A stretch of DNA of 32,831 bases, taken from an uncultured Erysipelotrichaceae bacterium. GTDB lineage: Bacteria > Bacillota_I > Bacilli_A > Erysipelotrichales > Erysipelotrichaceae. Below the pieces are notes generated by a model, which saw only the letters and a program-made list of their open reading frames with translations, made no database searches and was not told where the DNA came from. Below, piece after piece: positions 10,077 to 16,137 of the stretch (within the stretch, counting starts at the first letter, position 1; each line of letters begins with the position of its first letter). The stretch lies in contig CASEPS010000020.1 of the NCBI GenBank assembly GCA_949289855.1, forward strand, positions 1 through 32,831, given 5' to 3'. Position numbers and translations under genes: made by a program.

Positions 10077-10747
10077 CAGCCTGGGTATATATGCTGCTGT
10101 GTGAAGATGGCAGTTACTATACCGGCTGGACAACCGATGTCGAAAAACGCTTTACAAAACACTGCAATGGTAAAGGGGCAAAGTACACGCGGGTGCACAA
10201 ACCTCTACAAATTGCCTACGCAAAGTGCTATGATGACAAAAAGGAAGCCATGCGTAACGAGTATAGAATCAAACAGCTCTCACACTACGAAAAAGAAAAA
10301 CTGGCTTTAAGCGTTCCGAAGAAAACAGATGGAACGATAGATCTGCATGAGATCTTAAGGAGGAAAATCATGAGCGAATTGAAGTTTTACAAGTGCAACA
10401 AATGCGGCAAGGTCATTGCTGTATTGCACGACACACCAGTACCGACAATGTGCTGTGGTGAGGCGATGACAGAACTCACGGCTAACACAACGGATGCTGC
10501 ACAGGAAAAGCATGTGCCGGTCATCATCCGTGAAAATGGAGAAATCACAGCCCGTGTAGGCAGTGTAGACCATCCGATGATTCCTGAGCATTATATTGAA
10601 TTCCTTGCTTTTGAAACAGATAAGGGATTCAGAATTGCGTATCTCAATCCAGGCGAAGAACCAGCCGCAAAGATCATACAAAATGAAAATGTCAAAGCAG
10701 TGTATGCATATTGCAACCTGCATGGTCTTTGGAAAACAGAAGCATAA
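10073..10747 (+). CDS. GIY-YIG domain protein fused in frame to superoxide reductase
   Basis: Residues 1-95 form a YhbQ/YazA-type GIY-YIG nuclease-like domain: VYM (5-7), YTG (16-18), Arg26, KGAKYTR (34-40) and a likely metal-binding Glu63. Such proteins normally stop at about 95-100 residues. Here no stop codon occurs: the frame passes through DLHEILRRKI straight into Met100 of a complete desulfoferrodoxin, giving 224 residues. The AAGGAGG ribosome-binding site of the second part is itself translated as part of LRR. The start overlaps the permease stop (ATGA). The full-length fusion, the short reductase, or both may be made. YhbQ-type proteins act on nucleic acids; their exact role is poorly defined. 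Confidence 0.8.
   Translation: MTAWVYMLLCEDGSYYTGWTTDVEKRFTKHCNGKGAKYTRVHKPLQIAYAKCYDDKKEAMRNEYRIKQLSHYEKEKLALSVPKKTDGTIDLHEILRRKIMSELKFYKCNKCGKVIAVLHDTPVPTMCCGEAMTELTANTTDAAQEKHVPVIIRENGEITARVGSVDHPMIPEHYIEFLAFETDKGFRIAYLNPGEEPAAKIIQNENVKAVYAYCNLHGLWKTEA
10370..10747 (+). CDS. dfx: Superoxide reductase (desulfoferrodoxin), internal start
   Basis: Numbered from the ATG at 10370, the 125-residue product has Cys9, Cys12, Cys28 and Cys29 (desulforedoxin Fe centre I) and His48, His68, His74, Cys115 and His118 (catalytic Fe centre II). These are the positions known for Desulfovibrio desulfoferrodoxin, so all ligands are intact. The enzyme reduces superoxide to hydrogen peroxide in the cytoplasm of anaerobes. 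AAGGAGG (10357-10363) lies 6 nt before this ATG, strongly suggesting independent initiation within the longer fusion frame. An intrinsic terminator follows 7 nt after the stop. Its last ~40 bp recur at 15465. Confidence 0.9.
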   Translation: MSELKFYKCNKCGKVIAVLHDTPVPTMCCGEAMTELTANTTDAAQEKHVPVIIRENGEITARVGSVDHPMIPEHYIEFLAFETDKGFRIAYLNPGEEPAAKIIQNENVKAVYAYCNLHGLWKTEA

Positions 10748-10754
10748 TCTCATG

Positions 10755-10783
10755 AGAACTCTGTGAAATGCAGAGTTCTTTTT
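10755..10783 (+). terminator. Intrinsic terminator, cassette copy 1
   Basis: AGAACTCTG / CAGAGTTCT stem with a 7-nt loop, then TTTT. It ends the exporter-superoxide reductase operon. The same hairpin is present in copies 2 and 3, and a variant occurs at 16106. Confidence 0.9.
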
Positions 10784-10816
10784 CATTCGTCCCCCGAACA
10801 TGTCATTTCAACACCC
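10784..10816 (+). promoter_or_regulatory. Candidate LytTR operator, copy 1
   Basis: Imperfect direct repeats CATTCGTCCCCC and CATTTCAACACCC start 20 nt apart (10784 and 10804) and end 6 nt before the -35. The block is kept in all three cassettes. Assignment to the island's LytTR regulator is inference from spacing and position. Confidence 0.4.
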
Positions 10817-10822
10817 TGGAGA

Positions 10823-10851
10823 TTTACATTTAAAACACTTGTTCATATAGT
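10823..10851 (+). promoter_or_regulatory. Promoter, cassette copy 1
   Basis: -35 TTTACA (10823-10828), 17-nt spacer, -10 TATAGT (10846-10851). It would drive the mini-ORF and the two small membrane proteins downstream. Confidence 0.7.
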
Positions 10852-10905
10852 GAAATCAGAGATAGAAGCAATGTAAATGGTTCACAAACAAAGGAGGATC
10901 ATCCT

Positions 10906-10977
10906 ATGTGTACAAGTATGGCAAGGTATAAGAACGGGGATGGGTTAACATTCAATCTCAAATGTTGGTTTATTTGA
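10906..10977 (+). CDS. Mini-ORF, cassette copy 1 (23 residues)
   Basis: A 23-codon ORF begins MCTSMARYKNGDGLT and ends in NLKCWFI. AAGGAGG (10891-10897) lies 8 nt upstream, an excellent ribosome-binding site. The first 13 residues are nearly the same in the three cassettes and the tails differ. It could be a leader or signal peptide of this locus. Alternatively it could be the stump of a linear amide C-N hydrolase (choloylglycine hydrolase family), whose mature enzymes start at Cys2 of MCT. I cannot decide between these. Confidence 0.4.
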   Translation: MCTSMARYKNGDGLTFNLKCWFI

Positions 10978-11157
10978 TTGATTGGAAGTTACAGAGATTT
11001 ATGCCTGTTGTTGGATAAATCAACAAATGAATCGCCATTTGATTGACATCACTATGGCAAAAGACTCAGATAGATATGAGCATATATACTGAGTCCGCTC
11101 TCTAAAGACAGAATAGCAATGTTTGAGACGGTGTGCAGCACCGTCATGAAGGAAAAT

Positions 11158-11313
11158 ATGAAAAGAAACATTAAAATTGTCGTAGCATCCATCATTTTGA
11201 TTTTTGTATATTGCCTCCTCACTACTATGCTGAGACTTGAATTTCTAACACTGATAGTATCTACGGTGTTTATCATGATACAAATATGTGTCGTATCGCT
11301 TTTCCGAGAGTAA
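11158..11313 (+). CDS. 51-residue two-helix membrane protein, paralogue A
   Basis: The product starts MKRNIKIVVASIILIFVYCL and has two hydrophobic helices (about residues 5-22 and 31-48) around a short linker containing TTMLRLE. It is a paralogue of the 51-residue protein at 15269-15424: same length, the same MKRNIKIV start and TTMLR linker, and mostly conservative changes. The start is the ATG preceded by GAAGGAAA; earlier in-frame ATGs are not shared by the paralogue. It is the first substantial gene of cassette 1. The function is unknown. Size and context resemble bacteriocin immunity or small regulatory membrane peptides, but nothing in the sequence proves that. Confidence 0.7.
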   Translation: MKRNIKIVVASIILIFVYCLLTTMLRLEFLTLIVSTVFIMIQICVVSLFRE

Positions 11314-11385
11314 ATGAAAACACCATTGGATGCGAACAACCGATGGGACATATAAGAAATCGGATATAGAAAGAGAGGAAATACT

Positions 11386-11658
11386 ATGAATAAATATAGT
11401 CGATATATCTTGCTAGTGATTGGGGTCTTCCTGGTATTGGCAGGCGTGATCATCATTTCTCATAGTAGTTCGTTGTCTGGTAATTCCTTCCCATTTGGGA
11501 TGGACGGTCTTGAACCAGCAAATCGCCAGACAGTAAGTACATATATGATCATGTGGGCGCTGTCATTTGATTTCATTGCCCTGATCATTGCTCTGATTGG
11601 TATTCTTCTGATTCACAGGTTCTTTGTCCTTTCTGATCGGGTGAGTCAACAGAAGTGA
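11386..11658 (+). CDS. Small membrane protein, two helices (90 residues)
   Basis: The product has a hydrophobic helix at about residues 7-25 (YILLVIGVFLVLAGVIII), an extracytoplasmic-looking Ser/Gly/Asn-rich linker (SSSLSGNSFPFGMDGLEPAN), and a second helix at about 53-78 (MIMWALSFDFIALIIALIGI). The ATG at 11386 follows GAGAGGAAA. It shares the cassette 1 transcript with the 51-residue protein and ends before the terminator at 11728-11764. No family recognised. Confidence 0.7.
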   Translation: MNKYSRYILLVIGVFLVLAGVIIISHSSSLSGNSFPFGMDGLEPANRQTVSTYMIMWALSFDFIALIIALIGILLIHRFFVLSDRVSQQK

Positions 11659-11727
11659 CTGTTTTGTGTATCTGCTGTGTGCAAACATTAGAATGCACAT
11701 GTAGTTGTTTTGCATAATCTGTAAGAG

Positions 11728-11764
11728 GAAAGCTTTGGTTAAATTGAAGTCAAAGCTTTCTTTT
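11728..11764 (+). terminator. Intrinsic terminator closing the cassette 1 unit
   Basis: Perfect GAAAGCTTTG / CAAAGCTTTC stem (11728-11737 with 11751-11760), 13-nt loop, then TTTT. It separates cassette 1 from the regulator operon. Confidence 0.85.
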
Positions 11765-11765
11765 G

Positions 11766-11794
11766 TTAACAGAGATTTTAAATCGATTTATAAT
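11766..11794 (+). promoter_or_regulatory. Promoter of the two-component operon
   Basis: -35 TTAACA (11766-11771), 17-nt spacer, -10 TATAAT (11789-11794). The cassette direct repeats are not present upstream, so this promoter may be constitutive. Confidence 0.75.
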
Positions 11795-11851
11795 TGTTAT
11801 CAGAGCAAAGATGTATTCATTTTGTGAAGATTAGAATTGAAGAGGCAATTT

Positions 11852-12556
11852 ATGGTCAGAGTGTTGATAATTGAAGATCATGAAGAAGAAGCACAGCATG
11901 TTAAAGAGGCAATAGTGAGGTTATCTGATTCTTCTACATTGTCCTATGAAATCACGATAATAACGGAGAATTTCAATGAAGAGAAATTATCTGGTTATGA
12001 TTTGTATTTTCTCGATATCAATATGGGTCTAGATAATAATGGCTTTGAAATTGCAAAAACAATTCAACAACAAAATAGTCATGCTTGTATTGTCTTTTGT
12101 TCCAATCATGAAAATCTTGTCTTTGAATCATTCCGCCTTGATGTAATGTTCTTTGTCAGAAAGAGTCATCTGGATCAGGACATTAAGGAAGCGTTATGTA
12201 AATTTGAAAAAGTATATGCTAAGAGATTACAATTTTCTGAGGAATGGATTGGTTTGGATAGATCAAAACAAAAAGTTCAGATGGAAGATATCATATATCT
12301 TGAATCTGATGACAACTATACAATCATTCATTTGAAAGCAAATGATGAGATCCGGATAAAAATGTCTTTGAAAAAAGTAATGGATCAGCTACGGTTTGAA
12401 AAGCTTATTCTGATATCCCGTTCGATAGCCGTAAATTTATTGTATGTGACGGGAATTAACGGCAATTTCATTTATATGGGCAACAAACAACATTTTACAG
12501 CTTCTCAGAGAAAGATGAGTGAAATCAAAAAACTGATTCTGGAGAGTGATGATTGA
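11852..12556 (+). CDS. LytTR-family response regulator (AgrA/ComE-like)
   Basis: A 234-residue regulator. The receiver domain (1-120) has the acidic pair Glu8-Asp9, phospho-acceptor Asp55 in LYFLDINMG, Ser in VFCSNHE, and Lys in FFVRKSHLDQD. The LytTR DNA-binding domain (about 135-232) shows MEDIIYLESDDNYTIIHLKA and LILISRSIAVNLLYV. LytTR regulators bind paired direct repeats about two helical turns apart, and control quorum sensing, bacteriocins and virulence. The ATG at 11852 is preceded by AGAGG and gives the usual N-terminus; an upstream in-frame TTG (11837) is less likely. It is followed by the sensor gene. The DNA is visibly more AT-rich than the core genes. Confidence 0.9.
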   Translation: MVRVLIIEDHEEEAQHVKEAIVRLSDSSTLSYEITIITENFNEEKLSGYDLYFLDINMGLDNNGFEIAKTIQQQNSHACIVFCSNHENLVFESFRLDVMFFVRKSHLDQDIKEALCKFEKVYAKRLQFSEEWIGLDRSKQKVQMEDIIYLESDDNYTIIHLKANDEIRIKMSLKKVMDQLRFEKLILISRSIAVNLLYVTGINGNFIYMGNKQHFTASQRKMSEIKKLILESDD

Positions 12557-12558
12557 TT

Positions 12559-13779
12559 ATGTACATATTAGAAACATGTGTCAATTTAGCTGAGAGTATT
12601 GCGATTGCTATGTTGCTGCTTCAACTTAGTGGGAAGAAATCAACTTCTGCATATGTAAAAACAGCAATTCTTGCCATCATTGATTTCGTTTATATTCAAT
12701 ATATCAATGTCTACTATGGTCTTTCTGAGGGTTTATATGTGTTCTTTGAAATATTGATCCACTTTATTTATGCAATTTCAATGCATGTGAAACCAGCCAA
12801 AGCATTTACTATTGCGACTATTCCGGATTTGTTGCTTGCCTTGATTAATGGTTTATTTTATATCATGATCTCTTTTCTGTTTGGCTTTTACAATATTTCT
12901 TTAGTACTATCTCAATTTCGCATTATCATACTGTTGATCATGTTCTTCATACATGTCATTGTTTTTTATGAATTTTCTATCCAATTCAAGAAATTGGAAC
13001 ATATTGAAAATAATAAATTCTATTTGATGCTTTCTTTGATATGTATTGCAGGAATAGTATTTTTACAATCTTATGTTTCGATGATTTTTAATGGTGTTAC
13101 AGGTAATCTTCTTTTTCTCAGTTTTCTTTCAGGAATGCTTCTTTGTTTGTTTATTGTTATCATCAGCTATCAGACAATGCTGGAAAAAATAGAATACGAA
13201 AAAGAAAAGAACAAATTAATGCAAAATTCCAAAAATGAATGGATGAATTATACGATTAAGGAAAAGGAACGTTATCTGAATGAGTTGTCACATAATGTTC
13301 TCTTGTTTTTACAACTGTTGCAGACGGGAGCGAAAAAAGAAAAGGTTGAGCAGAGTGCCAAAAAGCTTACTTCGCAAATTGAAATGATTGATGTATCTGC
13401 CACAATTAATAATCCTGCATTATCTGCTGCCATAAAAGTGATTGCGGAAGAAGCAGAGAATAAGGGTATACATCTGAAAATTACATATGTATTGCAAAAG
13501 ATAATCGATGTGGATGAAACAGATCTGTATCTGGTCTTGACGCAATTATTGATGAAAGCAATTTCTTTCTGTTCTATGAATACAGAGATGGCAATCGAAA
13601 TCAAAGAAGTAATGGGAAACTGTAAAATTTCTGTTACATACCATGGTGGCAATAAATGTGAAATTGGTGATGAATTAATTAAATTGATCAAAAAGAATAA
13701 TGGTGATATTTTGGTAAAAATGAAGGAAAGGAGAACGGTAATACGTATGGTATTACCTGTCAGGCATAATGAAGATTAG
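12559..13779 (+). CDS. AgrC/ComD-like membrane sensor kinase with degenerate catalytic domain
   Basis: This 406-residue protein has about six membrane helices in residues 1-200, a basic coiled linker (EYEKEKNKLMQNSKNEW), a dimerisation region with the candidate His in ERYLNELSHNVLLFLQLL, and a C-terminal region in the position of a GHKL ATPase. Peptide-sensing HPK10 kinases usually have His-Asp and an N-box like LLDNAIEA. Here His is followed by Asn, and the N-box position reads QLLMKAISFC with no Asn; no glycine-rich G-box is evident. It may be a weak kinase, a phosphatase, or a pseudokinase. ATG 12559 lies 3 nt past the regulator stop. Confidence 0.8.
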   Translation: MYILETCVNLAESIAIAMLLLQLSGKKSTSAYVKTAILAIIDFVYIQYINVYYGLSEGLYVFFEILIHFIYAISMHVKPAKAFTIATIPDLLLALINGLFYIMISFLFGFYNISLVLSQFRIIILLIMFFIHVIVFYEFSIQFKKLEHIENNKFYLMLSLICIAGIVFLQSYVSMIFNGVTGNLLFLSFLSGMLLCLFIVIISYQTMLEKIEYEKEKNKLMQNSKNEWMNYTIKEKERYLNELSHNVLLFLQLLQTGAKKEKVEQSAKKLTSQIEMIDVSATINNPALSAAIKVIAEEAENKGIHLKITYVLQKIIDVDETDLYLVLTQLLMKAISFCSMNTEMAIEIKEVMGNCKISVTYHGGNKCEIGDELIKLIKKNNGDILVKMKERRTVIRMVLPVRHNED

Positions 13780-13927
13780 AGATATAATTTGTGAACAAAT
13801 CATCAAAATTGGTAAGGAACAATTGGAATGCTGTTCGAGATTAGGCATTTATCAGGATGATGTAAGAGATCTCAAAAAGAAGAGACAAGAACTTTCGAAA
13901 AAGAAAATTACGCTAAAGAAATCATAA
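13769..13927 (+). CDS. 52-residue charged protein coupled to the sensor gene
   Basis: This ORF starts inside the sensor gene (11-nt overlap) and encodes MKIRDIICEQIIKIGKEQLE, a Cys-Cys pair at 21-22, and a Lys-rich tail ending in LKKS. It has no signal peptide or membrane helix and looks like a short amphipathic helix plus basic tail. Overlap with the kinase suggests translational coupling. AgrD-like peptide precursors sit near such kinases, but this one lacks the typical precursor pattern. The function is unknown and the ORF could be chance. Confidence 0.4.
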   Translation: MKIRDIICEQIIKIGKEQLECCSRLGIYQDDVRDLKKKRQELSKKKITLKKS

Positions 13928-14055
13928 AAGGAATTTCATCACCAAACATATCATAGTCTGTCACAAATGCATAAAAACTATGAAACAATTTATTTTGATA
14001 TAGATGGGAGGATGAAACAAAAACGAAGGTTGCATAACAGAAGCATAATCTCATG

Positions 14056-14084
14056 AGAACTCTGTGAAATGCAGAGTTCTTTTT
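14056..14084 (+). terminator. Intrinsic terminator, cassette copy 2
   Basis: The same AGAACTCTG / CAGAGTTCT hairpin and T-run as copy 1. It would end the two-component operon. Confidence 0.9.
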
Positions 14085-14117
14085 CATTCATCCCCCAAAC
14101 TTGTCATTTCATCACCC
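14085..14117 (+). promoter_or_regulatory. Candidate LytTR operator, copy 2
   Basis: Direct repeats CATTCATC and CATTTCATC start at 14085 and 14105 (20 nt apart), just upstream of the -35. The block is retained although the neighbouring promoter sequence has diverged. Confidence 0.45.
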
Positions 14118-14123
14118 GCGATA

Positions 14124-14152
14124 TTGAAAATGAACAGACTCATTCTTATGAT
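14124..14152 (+). promoter_or_regulatory. Promoter, cassette copy 2
   Basis: -35 TTGAAA (14124-14129), 17-nt spacer, -10 TATGAT (14147-14152). The sequence differs from copies 1 and 3 but the geometry is the same. Confidence 0.7.
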
Positions 14153-14206
14153 GAAATCAGGAAAAGAAAGACTATAACAGTATCAGAGACAAAGGAGGAT
14201 AATCCT

Positions 14207-14269
14207 ATGTGTACATGTATGGCAAGGTATAAGAACGGAGATGGATTAACGGTCTTTCTCATAAGTTGA
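14207..14269 (+). CDS. Mini-ORF, cassette copy 2 (20 residues)
   Basis: The ORF begins MCTCMARYKNGDGLT and ends VFLIS, with AAGGAGG (14192-14198) 8 nt upstream. Paralogous to the mini-ORFs at 10906 and 15666; see copy 1 for the alternatives. Confidence 0.4.
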   Translation: MCTCMARYKNGDGLTVFLIS

Positions 14270-14408
14270 TTTATCTGACTTGATAAAGAATTAAGTGCAT
14301 TTGATTAGTTGAAAGTTGTATGGATCTGGTTTGTTGGATAAATCAATGAGTGATTCGACATCGCTGACGTAATGAGATAACCGCGTAATATAAAAAGGAG
14401 AAAAAAAC

Positions 14409-15251
14409 ATGAAAAAGATAACTGTAATTCTGTGCACAATATTTAGTTTATGTATTGTGTCTCCTGTTAAAGCAGAATCTGCTTCAGATATGCAGCATCC
14501 TGTTTCGTTTTGTTCGAATGAATATCAGTCATTGTTGAATGAATATGACAGATTATCGAAGGAAGCATTAGTTAAGCCAAATACAGCTAATGTTTCACAA
14601 GTGACAAGTTTGAAGGCTTCAATAGAAAGTTATCCATCATATATCTATTCTTTGCAAAGTAAAAGTTATGAGGAACTGAAACAATTCAATTATACAGATT
14701 CCCAAATTAGCGCAATTAAGGATTATGATGGTTCTGAACAAATGACTATTGCTGCTTCTGCAACAGTTTCAGGAAGTGTTTCACTTTCCTCACGCAGTTA
14801 TAATTCTTCCTCAAATAAAACTACAGCCAGAGTTACTGCGACAGTTCGTTGGAATGGTGTTCCGTTTGTAAAATCAGCAGATACATTTAGTACTGCATTG
14901 GCAGGTTCTTCTGCGAATTTTATGAGAACATCTTCATCTCTCAGAGTTGTATATCCAACATCTGGTACAGTATACGGATCGAACTACTCTGTTACTCTAG
15001 GAGCTGGGGTTTCTTATAAGTTTGGAATTGCGGATGCAAGTGGAGTTTTTTCGAGTGCGACACTAACATATGATGCAATTGCAGAAGGAAATGTAACTGT
15101 CATTGGGTTTGGAGCTGCCTATTCACATGCCGTTACATCTGGGTTGTCTTCAATAGGCATATCGATTGGTGTGTCCGGAGTAGGAATTTCATTTTCTGCA
15201 AATCTTGGAAATGATTTGATGTGGCAATATGCTAGTACAAGAGTTTATTGA
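14409..15251 (+). CDS. Secreted protein of unknown function, beta-rich
   Basis: This 280-residue protein has a clear Sec signal peptide (MKK, hydrophobic core to about residue 17, cleavage probably after VKA at 22). The mature N-terminal part is helical and polar (residues 30-110, with YEELKQFNYTDSQISAIKDY). The C-terminal 160 residues are Ser/Thr/Gly/Ala-rich with alternating hydrophobic residues, suggesting a beta-sandwich or beta-barrel-like fold, and end in LMWQYASTRVY. No lipobox, LPxTG or membrane anchor is seen, so it is probably released. The start follows AAAAGGAG. It is the main product of cassette 2, upstream of the 51-residue membrane paralogue B. A toxin, adhesin or bacteriocin-like role is possible but not shown. 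Confidence 0.8.
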   Translation: MKKITVILCTIFSLCIVSPVKAESASDMQHPVSFCSNEYQSLLNEYDRLSKEALVKPNTANVSQVTSLKASIESYPSYIYSLQSKSYEELKQFNYTDSQISAIKDYDGSEQMTIAASATVSGSVSLSSRSYNSSSNKTTARVTATVRWNGVPFVKSADTFSTALAGSSANFMRTSSSLRVVYPTSGTVYGSNYSVTLGAGVSYKFGIADASGVFSSATLTYDAIAEGNVTVIGFGAAYSHAVTSGLSSIGISIGVSGVGISFSANLGNDLMWQYASTRVY

Positions 15252-15268
15252 TCTGAAAGGGGGAAAAT

Positions 15269-15424
15269 ATGAAACGGAATATAAAAATAGTCATAGCATC
15301 CTTCATTTTGATTTTTGCATATTGCCTGATCACTACTATGCTCAGGATTGAGTCTCTACCAATGATGACAGCTACTGTGTTTATTATGTTGCAGATATGC
15401 ATCGTATCTGTTTTCAAGGAGTGA
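15269..15424 (+). CDS. 51-residue two-helix membrane protein, paralogue B
   Basis: The product starts MKRNIKIVIASFILIFAYCL and ends IVSVFKE, with two helices around TTMLRIE. It is colinear with paralogue A at 11158-11313 without gaps. The ATG follows AAAGGGGG and lies 17 nt after the secreted protein, so the two are co-transcribed from cassette 2. A partner or immunity role for the secreted protein is an untested idea. Paralogue A is downstream of cassette 1 without such a secreted protein. Confidence 0.7.
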   Translation: MKRNIKIVIASFILIFAYCLITTMLRIESLPMMTATVFIMLQICIVSVFKE

Positions 15425-15514
15425 TTGTTTAGAGAGTTATGGATAGCAGTGCATGACTGTTGAAATGCATATTGCAACCTGCATGGTCTTTGGAAACAGA
15501 AGCATAATCTCATG

Positions 15515-15543
15515 AGAACTCTGTGAAATGCAGAGTTCTTTTT
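15515..15543 (+). terminator. Intrinsic terminator, cassette copy 3
   Basis: AGAACTCTG / CAGAGTTCT hairpin followed by T-rich sequence. It closes the cassette 2 transcript after paralogue B. Confidence 0.9.
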
Positions 15544-15576
15544 CATTCATCACCCAAACCTGTTATTTCAACACCC
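15544..15576 (+). promoter_or_regulatory. Candidate LytTR operator, copy 3
   Basis: Direct repeats ATTCATCACCC and ATTTCAACACCC with a 20-21 nt offset, upstream of the -35 at 15583. This copy shows the repeat symmetry most clearly. Confidence 0.45.
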
Positions 15577-15582
15577 GGGATA

Positions 15583-15611
15583 TTTACATATAAAACACAT
15601 GTTCATATAGT
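15583..15611 (+). promoter_or_regulatory. Promoter, cassette copy 3
   Basis: -35 TTTACA (15583-15588), 17-nt spacer, -10 TATAGT (15606-15611). Both hexamers match copy 1. Confidence 0.7.
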
Positions 15612-15665
15612 GAAATCAGAGATAGAAACAAGGTAAAAGGTTCACAACCAAAGGAGGATAATCCT

Positions 15666-15722
15666 ATGTGTACATGTATAGCAAGGTATAAGAACGGAGA
15701 TGGATCAGGCGGGATCAGATAG
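15666..15722 (+). CDS. Mini-ORF, cassette copy 3 (18 residues)
   Basis: The ORF begins MCTCIARYKNGDG and ends SGGIR, with AAGGAGG (15651-15657) 8 nt upstream. Similarity to the other copies stops after the GDG codons, so the tail is unrelated. Confidence 0.35.
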   Translation: MCTCIARYKNGDGSGGIR

Positions 15723-15804
15723 ACAAATCTTTTCTAAATCTGATAACAATTGTAACTCATCAAATTGAAGTAAATAAGTTATGGCATATGCCTGAAGTAA
15801 TGGT

Positions 15805-16062
15805 ATGAAAATGAAAAAAATCTATTATGATATAGCCAAGTACTTTTCAATTACTGCATTGATCATCATACGTATTCCAACTATTGATTTTCCGGTAAAT
15901 GCAATCATAGCAATCTTGTGTTTAAGTATATGCCTGTTGTTCATGGTAAAGGGAAAGAAATGCAAAGACGGTGCTGTGGAAGATTGGGAAAAAGGCTACA
16001 AAATGGTGGATACAGCCAATTGGGTCACATATGGACTGATATTGATCTTATTGCTGTTTTAG
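15805..16062 (+). CDS. Small membrane protein, about three helices (85 residues)
   Basis: The protein starts MKMKKIYYDIAKYFSITALI and has hydrophobic segments at about residues 12-26, 30-48 and 70-85, with a charged loop between (KGKKCKDGAVEDWEKGYKMV). It is the only substantial gene downstream of cassette 3. No good Shine-Dalgarno precedes the ATG at 15805, and the next in-frame ATG (15811) is no better, so the start is uncertain. No family recognised. It ends 43 nt before the terminator at 16106. Confidence 0.6.
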   Translation: MKMKKIYYDIAKYFSITALIIIRIPTIDFPVNAIIAILCLSICLLFMVKGKKCKDGAVEDWEKGYKMVDTANWVTYGLILILLLF

Positions 16063-16105: not shown

Positions 16106-16137
16106 GAGAACTTTGAGTAATGCAGAGTTCTCTTTTT
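16106..16137 (+). terminator. Intrinsic terminator at the right edge of the island
   Basis: GAGAACTTTG / CAGAGTTCTC stem with one G-U pair, 7-nt loop, then TTTTT. Stem and loop length resemble the cassette terminators, so it may be a fourth, older copy. Confidence 0.85.

Follow-up and report, generated by a model that had tools for sequence, protein, structure and literature searches.

What controls the three similar gene cassettes that flank a sensor/regulator pair in a stretch of 32,831 nucleotides (nt) from an uncultured Erysipelotrichaceae bacterium (contig CASEPS010000020.1, hereafter the window)? Each cassette carries a 33-nt block upstream of a promoter, continues with a short leader open reading frame (ORF) whose peptide carries the hexapeptide RYKNGD, and then encodes small exported or membrane proteins. 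The pair between them comprises a LytTR response regulator and a membrane sensor. A first-pass annotation of the DNA had read the blocks as likely LytTR sites, each made of two imperfect direct repeats. We found that the leader ORFs belong to a family that is conserved as a peptide and precedes exported-protein genes. By sequence and position, the blocks are plausible but putative operators.

A family of RYKNGD mini-ORFs

The three leader peptides of the window share MCT[CS][MI]ARYKNGD (Table 1). The most conserved functional part of the cassette module is the ribosome-binding site with the leader ORF, rather than the block: the diverged copy 2 differs from the others at 1-3 of 52 positions here (p = 1.6e-6 against the promoter region). 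The mini-ORF recurs with its ribosome-binding site elsewhere in the same genome, in related genomes, on a prophage-like contig and in Streptococcus. The first match found across genomes, MKKDNIYHVCMARYKTGDYCQFLNLISEII (L006), comes from a different species of the genus and precedes a secreted-protein gene. A back-translated RYKNGD pattern gave nine copies in the genome of the window compared to none for a reversed-pattern control, and 10, 7 and 7 copies in the related genomes G094, G194 and G216, with 2-3 in several others. These counts are lower bounds, since the DNA pattern demanded the exact core and the genomes searched were samples of species representatives. On contig C17 of G094 (L103, positions 3189 and 4162), a leader and its secreted-protein cassette are tandemly duplicated in near-identical form, a fresh cassette duplication.

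Scanning genome contigs with the pattern revealed tandem series of mini-ORFs in Streptococcus hillyeri, for example MCVARYKNGDNFLVA. At least two copies, and up to eight, were present in 35 of 147 Streptococcus genomes, and the control never exceeded two. Since the DNA pattern also admits serine in place of arginine (AGY), we relied on these 35 genomes and on a check of short ORFs; a tally of 52 genomes in the genus of S. hillyeri includes chance matches. Among Streptococcus short ORFs preceded by a Shine-Dalgarno (SD) sequence, collected with no requirement for the exact core, 59 had the exact hexapeptide, seven a single-residue variant and none a double-residue variant, and scrambled targets on the Streptococcus loci gave none within one residue. 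The arrays (L244-L263) hold 2-8 tandem mini-ORFs and occupy one conserved place, flanked by mutY and rpsF-ssb; in some species variable cargo follows, either signal peptidase and pilin-like genes or bacteriocin-like genes. Two arrays examined base by base consist of a promoter, 6-8 mini-ORFs and a terminator, with no other gene. As the arrays demonstrate, the peptide also occurs with no gene behind it. A pneumococcal ribosome-profiling paper does not mention mutY or rpsF.

The phage contig has the order helix-turn-helix regulator, MIYLNPQRYKNGDIDCSI, secreted protein. Of 69 viral matches most had no start or lay within long genes, and L156 was the sole convincing one. Matches beyond the related genomes, Streptococcus and phage were mostly chance ones within long genes; an exception is L282, where a leader is followed 63 nt on by a 213-amino-acid (aa) secreted protein. 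A search with [CS][MI]ARYKxGD gave a real match in S. hillyeri and matches in Legionella (L053) and Persicitalea (L054) that we judged to be chance, and three family-wide matches (L027, L030, L031) were set aside as lying within long genes. Two further loci of the same genome stand apart. L004 (contig C17, 1103-803, minus strand) has a leader cut short to MCTYMAR*, its nucleotides matching those of the window leaders; the 57-aa membrane peptide that follows is similar to the 51-aa window cargo, and by its sequence the locus looks like a decayed cassette. The bile salt hydrolase gene at L005 starts with MCTC.TYKN; we considered it as leader kin and kept it apart as a full 325-aa enzyme gene with only about 33 nt in common.

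Comparison of 101 distinct mini-peptides revealed that all six core codons vary at their wobble positions; the arginine is encoded by AGG in 37, CGG in 18, AGA in 18, CGT in 15 and CGC in 13. The core is usually preceded by seven residues with the consensus M-L-x-[MFL]-N-[IVL]-[SAG] and most often followed by 0-3. That the codons vary while the hexapeptide is nearly invariant indicates that selection acts on the peptide. Folding of the stretch between leader and gene at 35 loci gave a mean z of -0.48; neither there nor among the leaders did we find a shared RNA structure. An Rfam search of the leader loci returned no regulatory family, only tRNA and signal recognition particle RNA.

The genes behind the leaders were examined for 42 single leaders from related genomes and phage. 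In 37 of them a gene starts within 300 nt of the leader stop, mostly after 24-98 nt and with a median gap of about 50 nt. By a simple hydrophobicity rule, 35 of these 37 genes begin with a hydrophobic export or membrane segment, compared to 38 of 137 background ORFs at the same loci (p = 4.6e-14). Hardly any of them belongs to a known family. The window cargo, comprising a 280-aa secreted protein and membrane proteins of 51, 85 and 90 aa, fits this pattern; the 280-aa protein has no homologues among plasmids and viral contigs. Two isolated Streptococcus leaders (L239 and L260) lie upstream of a 98-aa lactococcin-972-like protein (Pfam E = 0.04, below the cut-off) and also precede a DUF1430 protein (Pfam E = 6e-4, tested for L260). 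A lactococcin-like locus on a Macrococcus plasmid was rejected as a family member, having no RYKNGD leader.

Repeat blocks and the LytTR pair

The three modules are direct repeats of 249 nt with 82% identity to copy 1. Each contains, in order, the hairpin terminator of a desulfoferrodoxin gene (dfx), the block, the promoter, a strong SD and the leader ORF. Copies 1 and 3 also have in common the final 32 nt of the desulfoferrodoxin coding sequence (10704-10735 = 15465-15496), which shows that the end of this neighbouring gene was duplicated along with the module. The repeats show that the module spread through segmental duplication and now drives different small exported or membrane proteins. 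The blocks are therefore not three independent discoveries, since each sits within a homologous copy. At 16106-16135, just before pnp, the desulfoferrodoxin-type terminator recurs a fourth time in diverged form (87%), perhaps marking the original boundary of the island. A second duplicated segment of 166 nt (11151-11316 and 15262-15427, 79%) codes for the 51-aa membrane peptide of cassettes 1 and 2.

The blocks lie exactly where the first-pass annotation had placed them, at 10784-10816, 14085-14117 and 15544-15576, and all three end 6 nt before the -35 element as claimed. A motif scan of the whole genome (2.3 Mb, up to three mismatches) returned these three and no others, so that no unrelated promoter carries the block, and it was found in none of 70 genomes of the genus. 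The paired direct repeats that had been described for every block hold for copies 2 and 3, with half-sites alike at 8 of 9 positions and a period of 21 nt, but are weak in copy 1 (6 of 9). Published LytTR sites are 9-bp repeats with 11-13 bp between them, placed 4-11 bp before the -35, and their repeat sequences diverge widely (PMC6193735). The 9-12-9 direct repeats of copies 2 and 3 agree with this arrangement, and the distance from half-site end to -35 is 6-7 nt in all three copies, inside the published range.

Shuffling within the 33-nt blocks gave p = 0.42, 0.0095 and 0.0035 for copies 1, 2 and 3, and a joint column permutation over the three blocks gave p = 0.0026. With the geometry fixed beforehand to the published one (9-mers, 11-13 nt apart, 4-11 nt before the -35), the background probability of at least 8 of 9 matches was 0.009 per position; pairs of this quality occurred at two of 26 promoter-like sites in the window, both of them cassette promoters (copies 2 and 3). 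Divergence in copy 2 is lower in the block (4 of 33 positions) than in the promoter and 5' untranslated region (27 of 75; p = 0.012). Collectively, these results give moderate support to a paired site that may be functional in cassettes 2 and 3.

The island does encode a LytTR regulator, with Pfam matches to LytTR (4e-15) and Response_reg (2e-9). The promoter of its own operon has no block, as had been noted, the best pair there reaching 4 of 9. The LytTR family recognition motif is FhRhHRS (PMC4227749). Reading of the translation places LILISRS at this position in the island regulator, which makes a non-canonical site possible, though not predicted. The sensor (12559-13779) matched no Pfam family at E<=1, so that no histidine-kinase ATPase domain was recognised; NCBIfam kinase matches were weak only (PnpS, 1e-4), and its N and G boxes were unrecognisable on reading.

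The genome has four LytTR loci, two of which adjoin RYKNGD cassettes; by a rough estimate, such adjacency would arise by chance about once in 700 genomes. The second is on contig C59 (L096, 3043-8411), where a paralogous pair, with sensor 26% and regulator 32% identical to those of the island, lies in divergent orientation to two RYKNGD cassettes, whose secreted products have 222 and 141 aa. In the divergent promoter region, ACCGTTGAG fits the LytTR consensus, and a second site, ACCGTTGAA, follows 31 nt later. The histidine region LSHNVLLFLQLL is kept in both sensors, which may be degenerate kinases or membrane inhibitors. No RYKNGD leader was found at the dfx loci of relatives or at other LytTR loci.

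Table 1. Coordinates of the modules, control elements and genes of the three cassettes and the regulator operon in the window
Feature	Position	Strand	Evidence
Module copy 1, 249 nt: terminator, block, promoter, ribosome-binding site, leader ORF	10729-10977	+	repeat search, alignment
Module copy 2 (diverged)	14030-14278	+	repeat search, alignment
Module copy 3	15489-15737	+	repeat search, alignment
Desulfoferrodoxin terminator hairpin and T run, 30 nt	10754-10783, 14055-14084, 15514-15543	+	100% identical in 3/3 copies
Repeat block 1; half-sites 10786-10794 and 10807-10815, 6/9 alike	10784-10816	+	
Repeat block 2; half-sites TTCATCCCC 14087-14095 and TTCATCACC 14108-14116, 8/9	14085-14117	+	
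Repeat block 3; half-sites TTCATCACC 15546-15554 and TTCAACACC 15567-15575, 8/9	15544-15576	+	
Cassette 1 promoter TTTACA-17-TATAGT	10823-10851	+	
Cassette 2 promoter TTGAAA-17-TATGAT	14124-14152	+	
Cassette 3 promoter TTTACA-17-TATAGT	15583-15611	+	
Regulator operon promoter TTAACA-17-TATAAT, without block	11766-11794	+	
Leader ORF 1 MCTSMARYKNGDGLTFNLKCWFI	10906-10977	+	
Leader ORF 2 MCTCMARYKNGDGLTVFLIS	14207-14269	+	
Leader ORF 3 MCTCIARYKNGDGSGGIR	15666-15722	+	
Cassette 1 cargo: 51-aa membrane peptide, 79% DNA identity to 15269-15424	11158-11313	+	
Cassette 1 cargo: 90-aa membrane protein	11386-11658	+	
Cassette 2 cargo: 280-aa protein, signal peptide, no known family	14409-15251	+	
Cassette 2 cargo: 51-aa membrane peptide	15269-15424	+	
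Cassette 3 cargo: 85-aa membrane protein	15805-16062	+	
LytTR response regulator	11852-12556	+	Pfam PF04397 (LytTR) 4e-15, PF00072 (Response_reg) 2e-9
Membrane sensor-kinase-like partner; phospho-acceptor-like H (LSHNVLLFLQLL), ATPase domain unrecognisable	12559-13779	+	

Proposed two-layer control and its rivals

We propose that the cassettes may be controlled in two layers, a regulator-bound promoter followed by a conserved leader peptide, and we consider the chances of this overall scheme to be even. In the first layer, the LytTR regulator would bind the 9-12-9 repeats upstream of the -35 as a dimer and change transcription of the three cassettes, leaving its own operon unaffected; that it acts on the repeats in this way to control cassettes 1-3 is about as probable as the opposite. 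In the second, each transcript would open with the RYKNGD leader ORF, whose translation would set the output of the exported, bacteriocin-like protein downstream. Action of leader translation on its own transcript, in cis, is somewhat probable, and the likeliest way, itself with less than an even chance, would be for the nascent RYKNGD peptide to make its ribosome pause close to the mRNA 5' end. For the family at large, we tentatively suggest that the RYKNGD mini-ORFs make up a class of regulatory peptide genes, so far undescribed, which the order of the window shares with Streptococcus. Single leaders would govern secreted bacteriocin-like proteins, probably via a nascent peptide acting on the ribosome, and the Streptococcus arrays of up to eight would be transcribed on their own, between mutY and rpsF, as a peptide-encoding RNA.

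Several observations weigh against this proposal. The classical LytTR consensus is [TA][AC][CA]GTTN[AG][TG], and it has no match in any of the three cassette control regions; since known LytTR sites vary widely, its absence lowers, without excluding, the membership of the blocks among LytTR operators. The repeat in copy 1 is poor, the best copies reach only p ~0.09 in the wider 110-nt region, and, given the duplication, the three promoters are closer to one observation plus conservation. Of the claim that the blocks are likely LytTR sites, the geometry, the adjacent LytTR gene and the restriction to the island thus speak in favour, but the missing consensus, the degenerate copy 1 and the origin of the copies by duplication speak against. 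The cassette promoters may well need no activator, being near consensus with ideal 17-nt spacing, and phosphorylation of the regulator is uncertain because the ATP-binding motifs of the sensor are not recognisable. Several genomes with many RYKNGD leaders carry no LytTR gene, indicating that the leader family is independent of LytTR regulation and that LytTR is at most a local layer. For the second layer, classical attenuation is unsupported because the RNA between leader and gene has no conserved structure, and the arrays lack a downstream exported gene inside their own transcription unit.

These points feed into two other accounts of the block. It may be a passenger of the 249-nt stretch from dfx terminator to leader ORF, duplicated twice and with no operator function. 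The identical dfx terminators within the homologous copies, the dfx 3' end in copies 1 and 3, and the weakness of the repeat in wider sequence and in copy 1 all fit this account, but the block of copy 2 has changed less than the neighbouring promoter and 5' untranslated region, and a 9-12-9 pair so placed before the -35 is uncommon in the background; we regard a passenger as unlikely. A different regulator, such as a repressor of the strong promoter, could instead bind the block in place of the LytTR protein of the island. The lack of the LytTR consensus and of a block at the promoter of the LytTR gene would be explained, and promoters this close to consensus, with spacers of 17 nt, would fit repression no less well than activation. 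Against it, the genome has the block nowhere but in the island with the LytTR gene, and the block shares the geometry of LytTR sites; we consider another regulator quite unlikely.

For the leader, the serious rival, because of the Streptococcus arrays, is a functional product acting in trans as an intracellular or exported signal or as a ligand. Stand-alone transcripts of 2-8 mini-ORFs between promoter and terminator, and a core that is invariant between variable ends, fit such a peptide, but the mini-ORFs have no signal peptide, and 37 of the 42 single copies are followed, after a median gap of about 50 nt, by a gene that nearly always encodes an exported protein, as a cis leader predicts; a trans-acting peptide seems somewhat unlikely. 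Finally, the leader ORF might only recruit ribosomes through reinitiation or translation coupling, its sequence being irrelevant, as its strong SD and position just upstream of the gene would allow. Reinitiation at leader genes has been described, with a peak distance of 15-16 bp in Firmicutes (PMC4833913). The leader-gene gaps lie mostly well past this peak, which makes reinitiation less likely, and the hexapeptide is invariant in amino acids with variable codons; recruitment as the sole role is improbable.

Relation to known systems

The blocks resemble the operators of HdrR/BrsR-type regulators and AgrA (9-bp direct repeats with a 12-bp spacer) in their paired repeats, 21-nt period and distance of 6-7 nt from the -35, and in lying near a LytTR gene and before genes for small exported proteins. 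They differ in that the window repeats depart from the classical consensus, one of three copies is degenerate, and binding here is putative. HdrR-type operons are also autoregulated via such repeats, which the regulator promoter at 11766 lacks. AgrCA and ComDE share with the island the arrangement of a membrane sensor and a LytTR response regulator in one operon, but the ATPase domain of the window sensor is not recognised by Pfam. No pheromone precursor or AgrB-like gene was noticed among the ORFs of 10.7-16.1 kb, where small precursors are hard to exclude.

Like the leader peptides ErmBL, ErmCL and TnaC, the RYKNGD mini-ORF is a short ORF (9-25 aa) with its own SD directly upstream of a gene, with a conserved peptide and variable codons. 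In contrast, its core matches no leader peptide in the literature searched, no conserved attenuator structure accompanies it, it precedes diverse exported-protein genes rather than resistance or amino-acid genes, and it forms stand-alone arrays in Streptococcus. Lactococcin-972-type loci, which include a DUF1430 membrane protein, are linked to the family by the two Streptococcus singletons directly upstream of such a pair, and the window cargos are likewise small exported or membrane proteins. Unlike these loci, however, no window cargo matches the lactococcin family, and the Macrococcus locus has no leader. Our literature search returned no description of RYKNGD, the occurrences of YKNGD there being unrelated. 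Leader peptides as such are known, and as far as the literature searched shows, the RYKNGD family appears to be undescribed.

If the operator reading is true, the three cassettes would be a set of targets for a sensor/LytTR pair that is so far uncharacterised and belongs to a non-model lineage. Of greater weight is the leader family: a 13-residue ORF with an invariant hexapeptide, too short for annotation, stands before dozens of unrelated exported-protein genes in distant Bacillota. It would serve as a sequence tag for secreted bacteriocin-like proteins that belong to no family, and would be a new case of control by a nascent peptide or mini-peptide.

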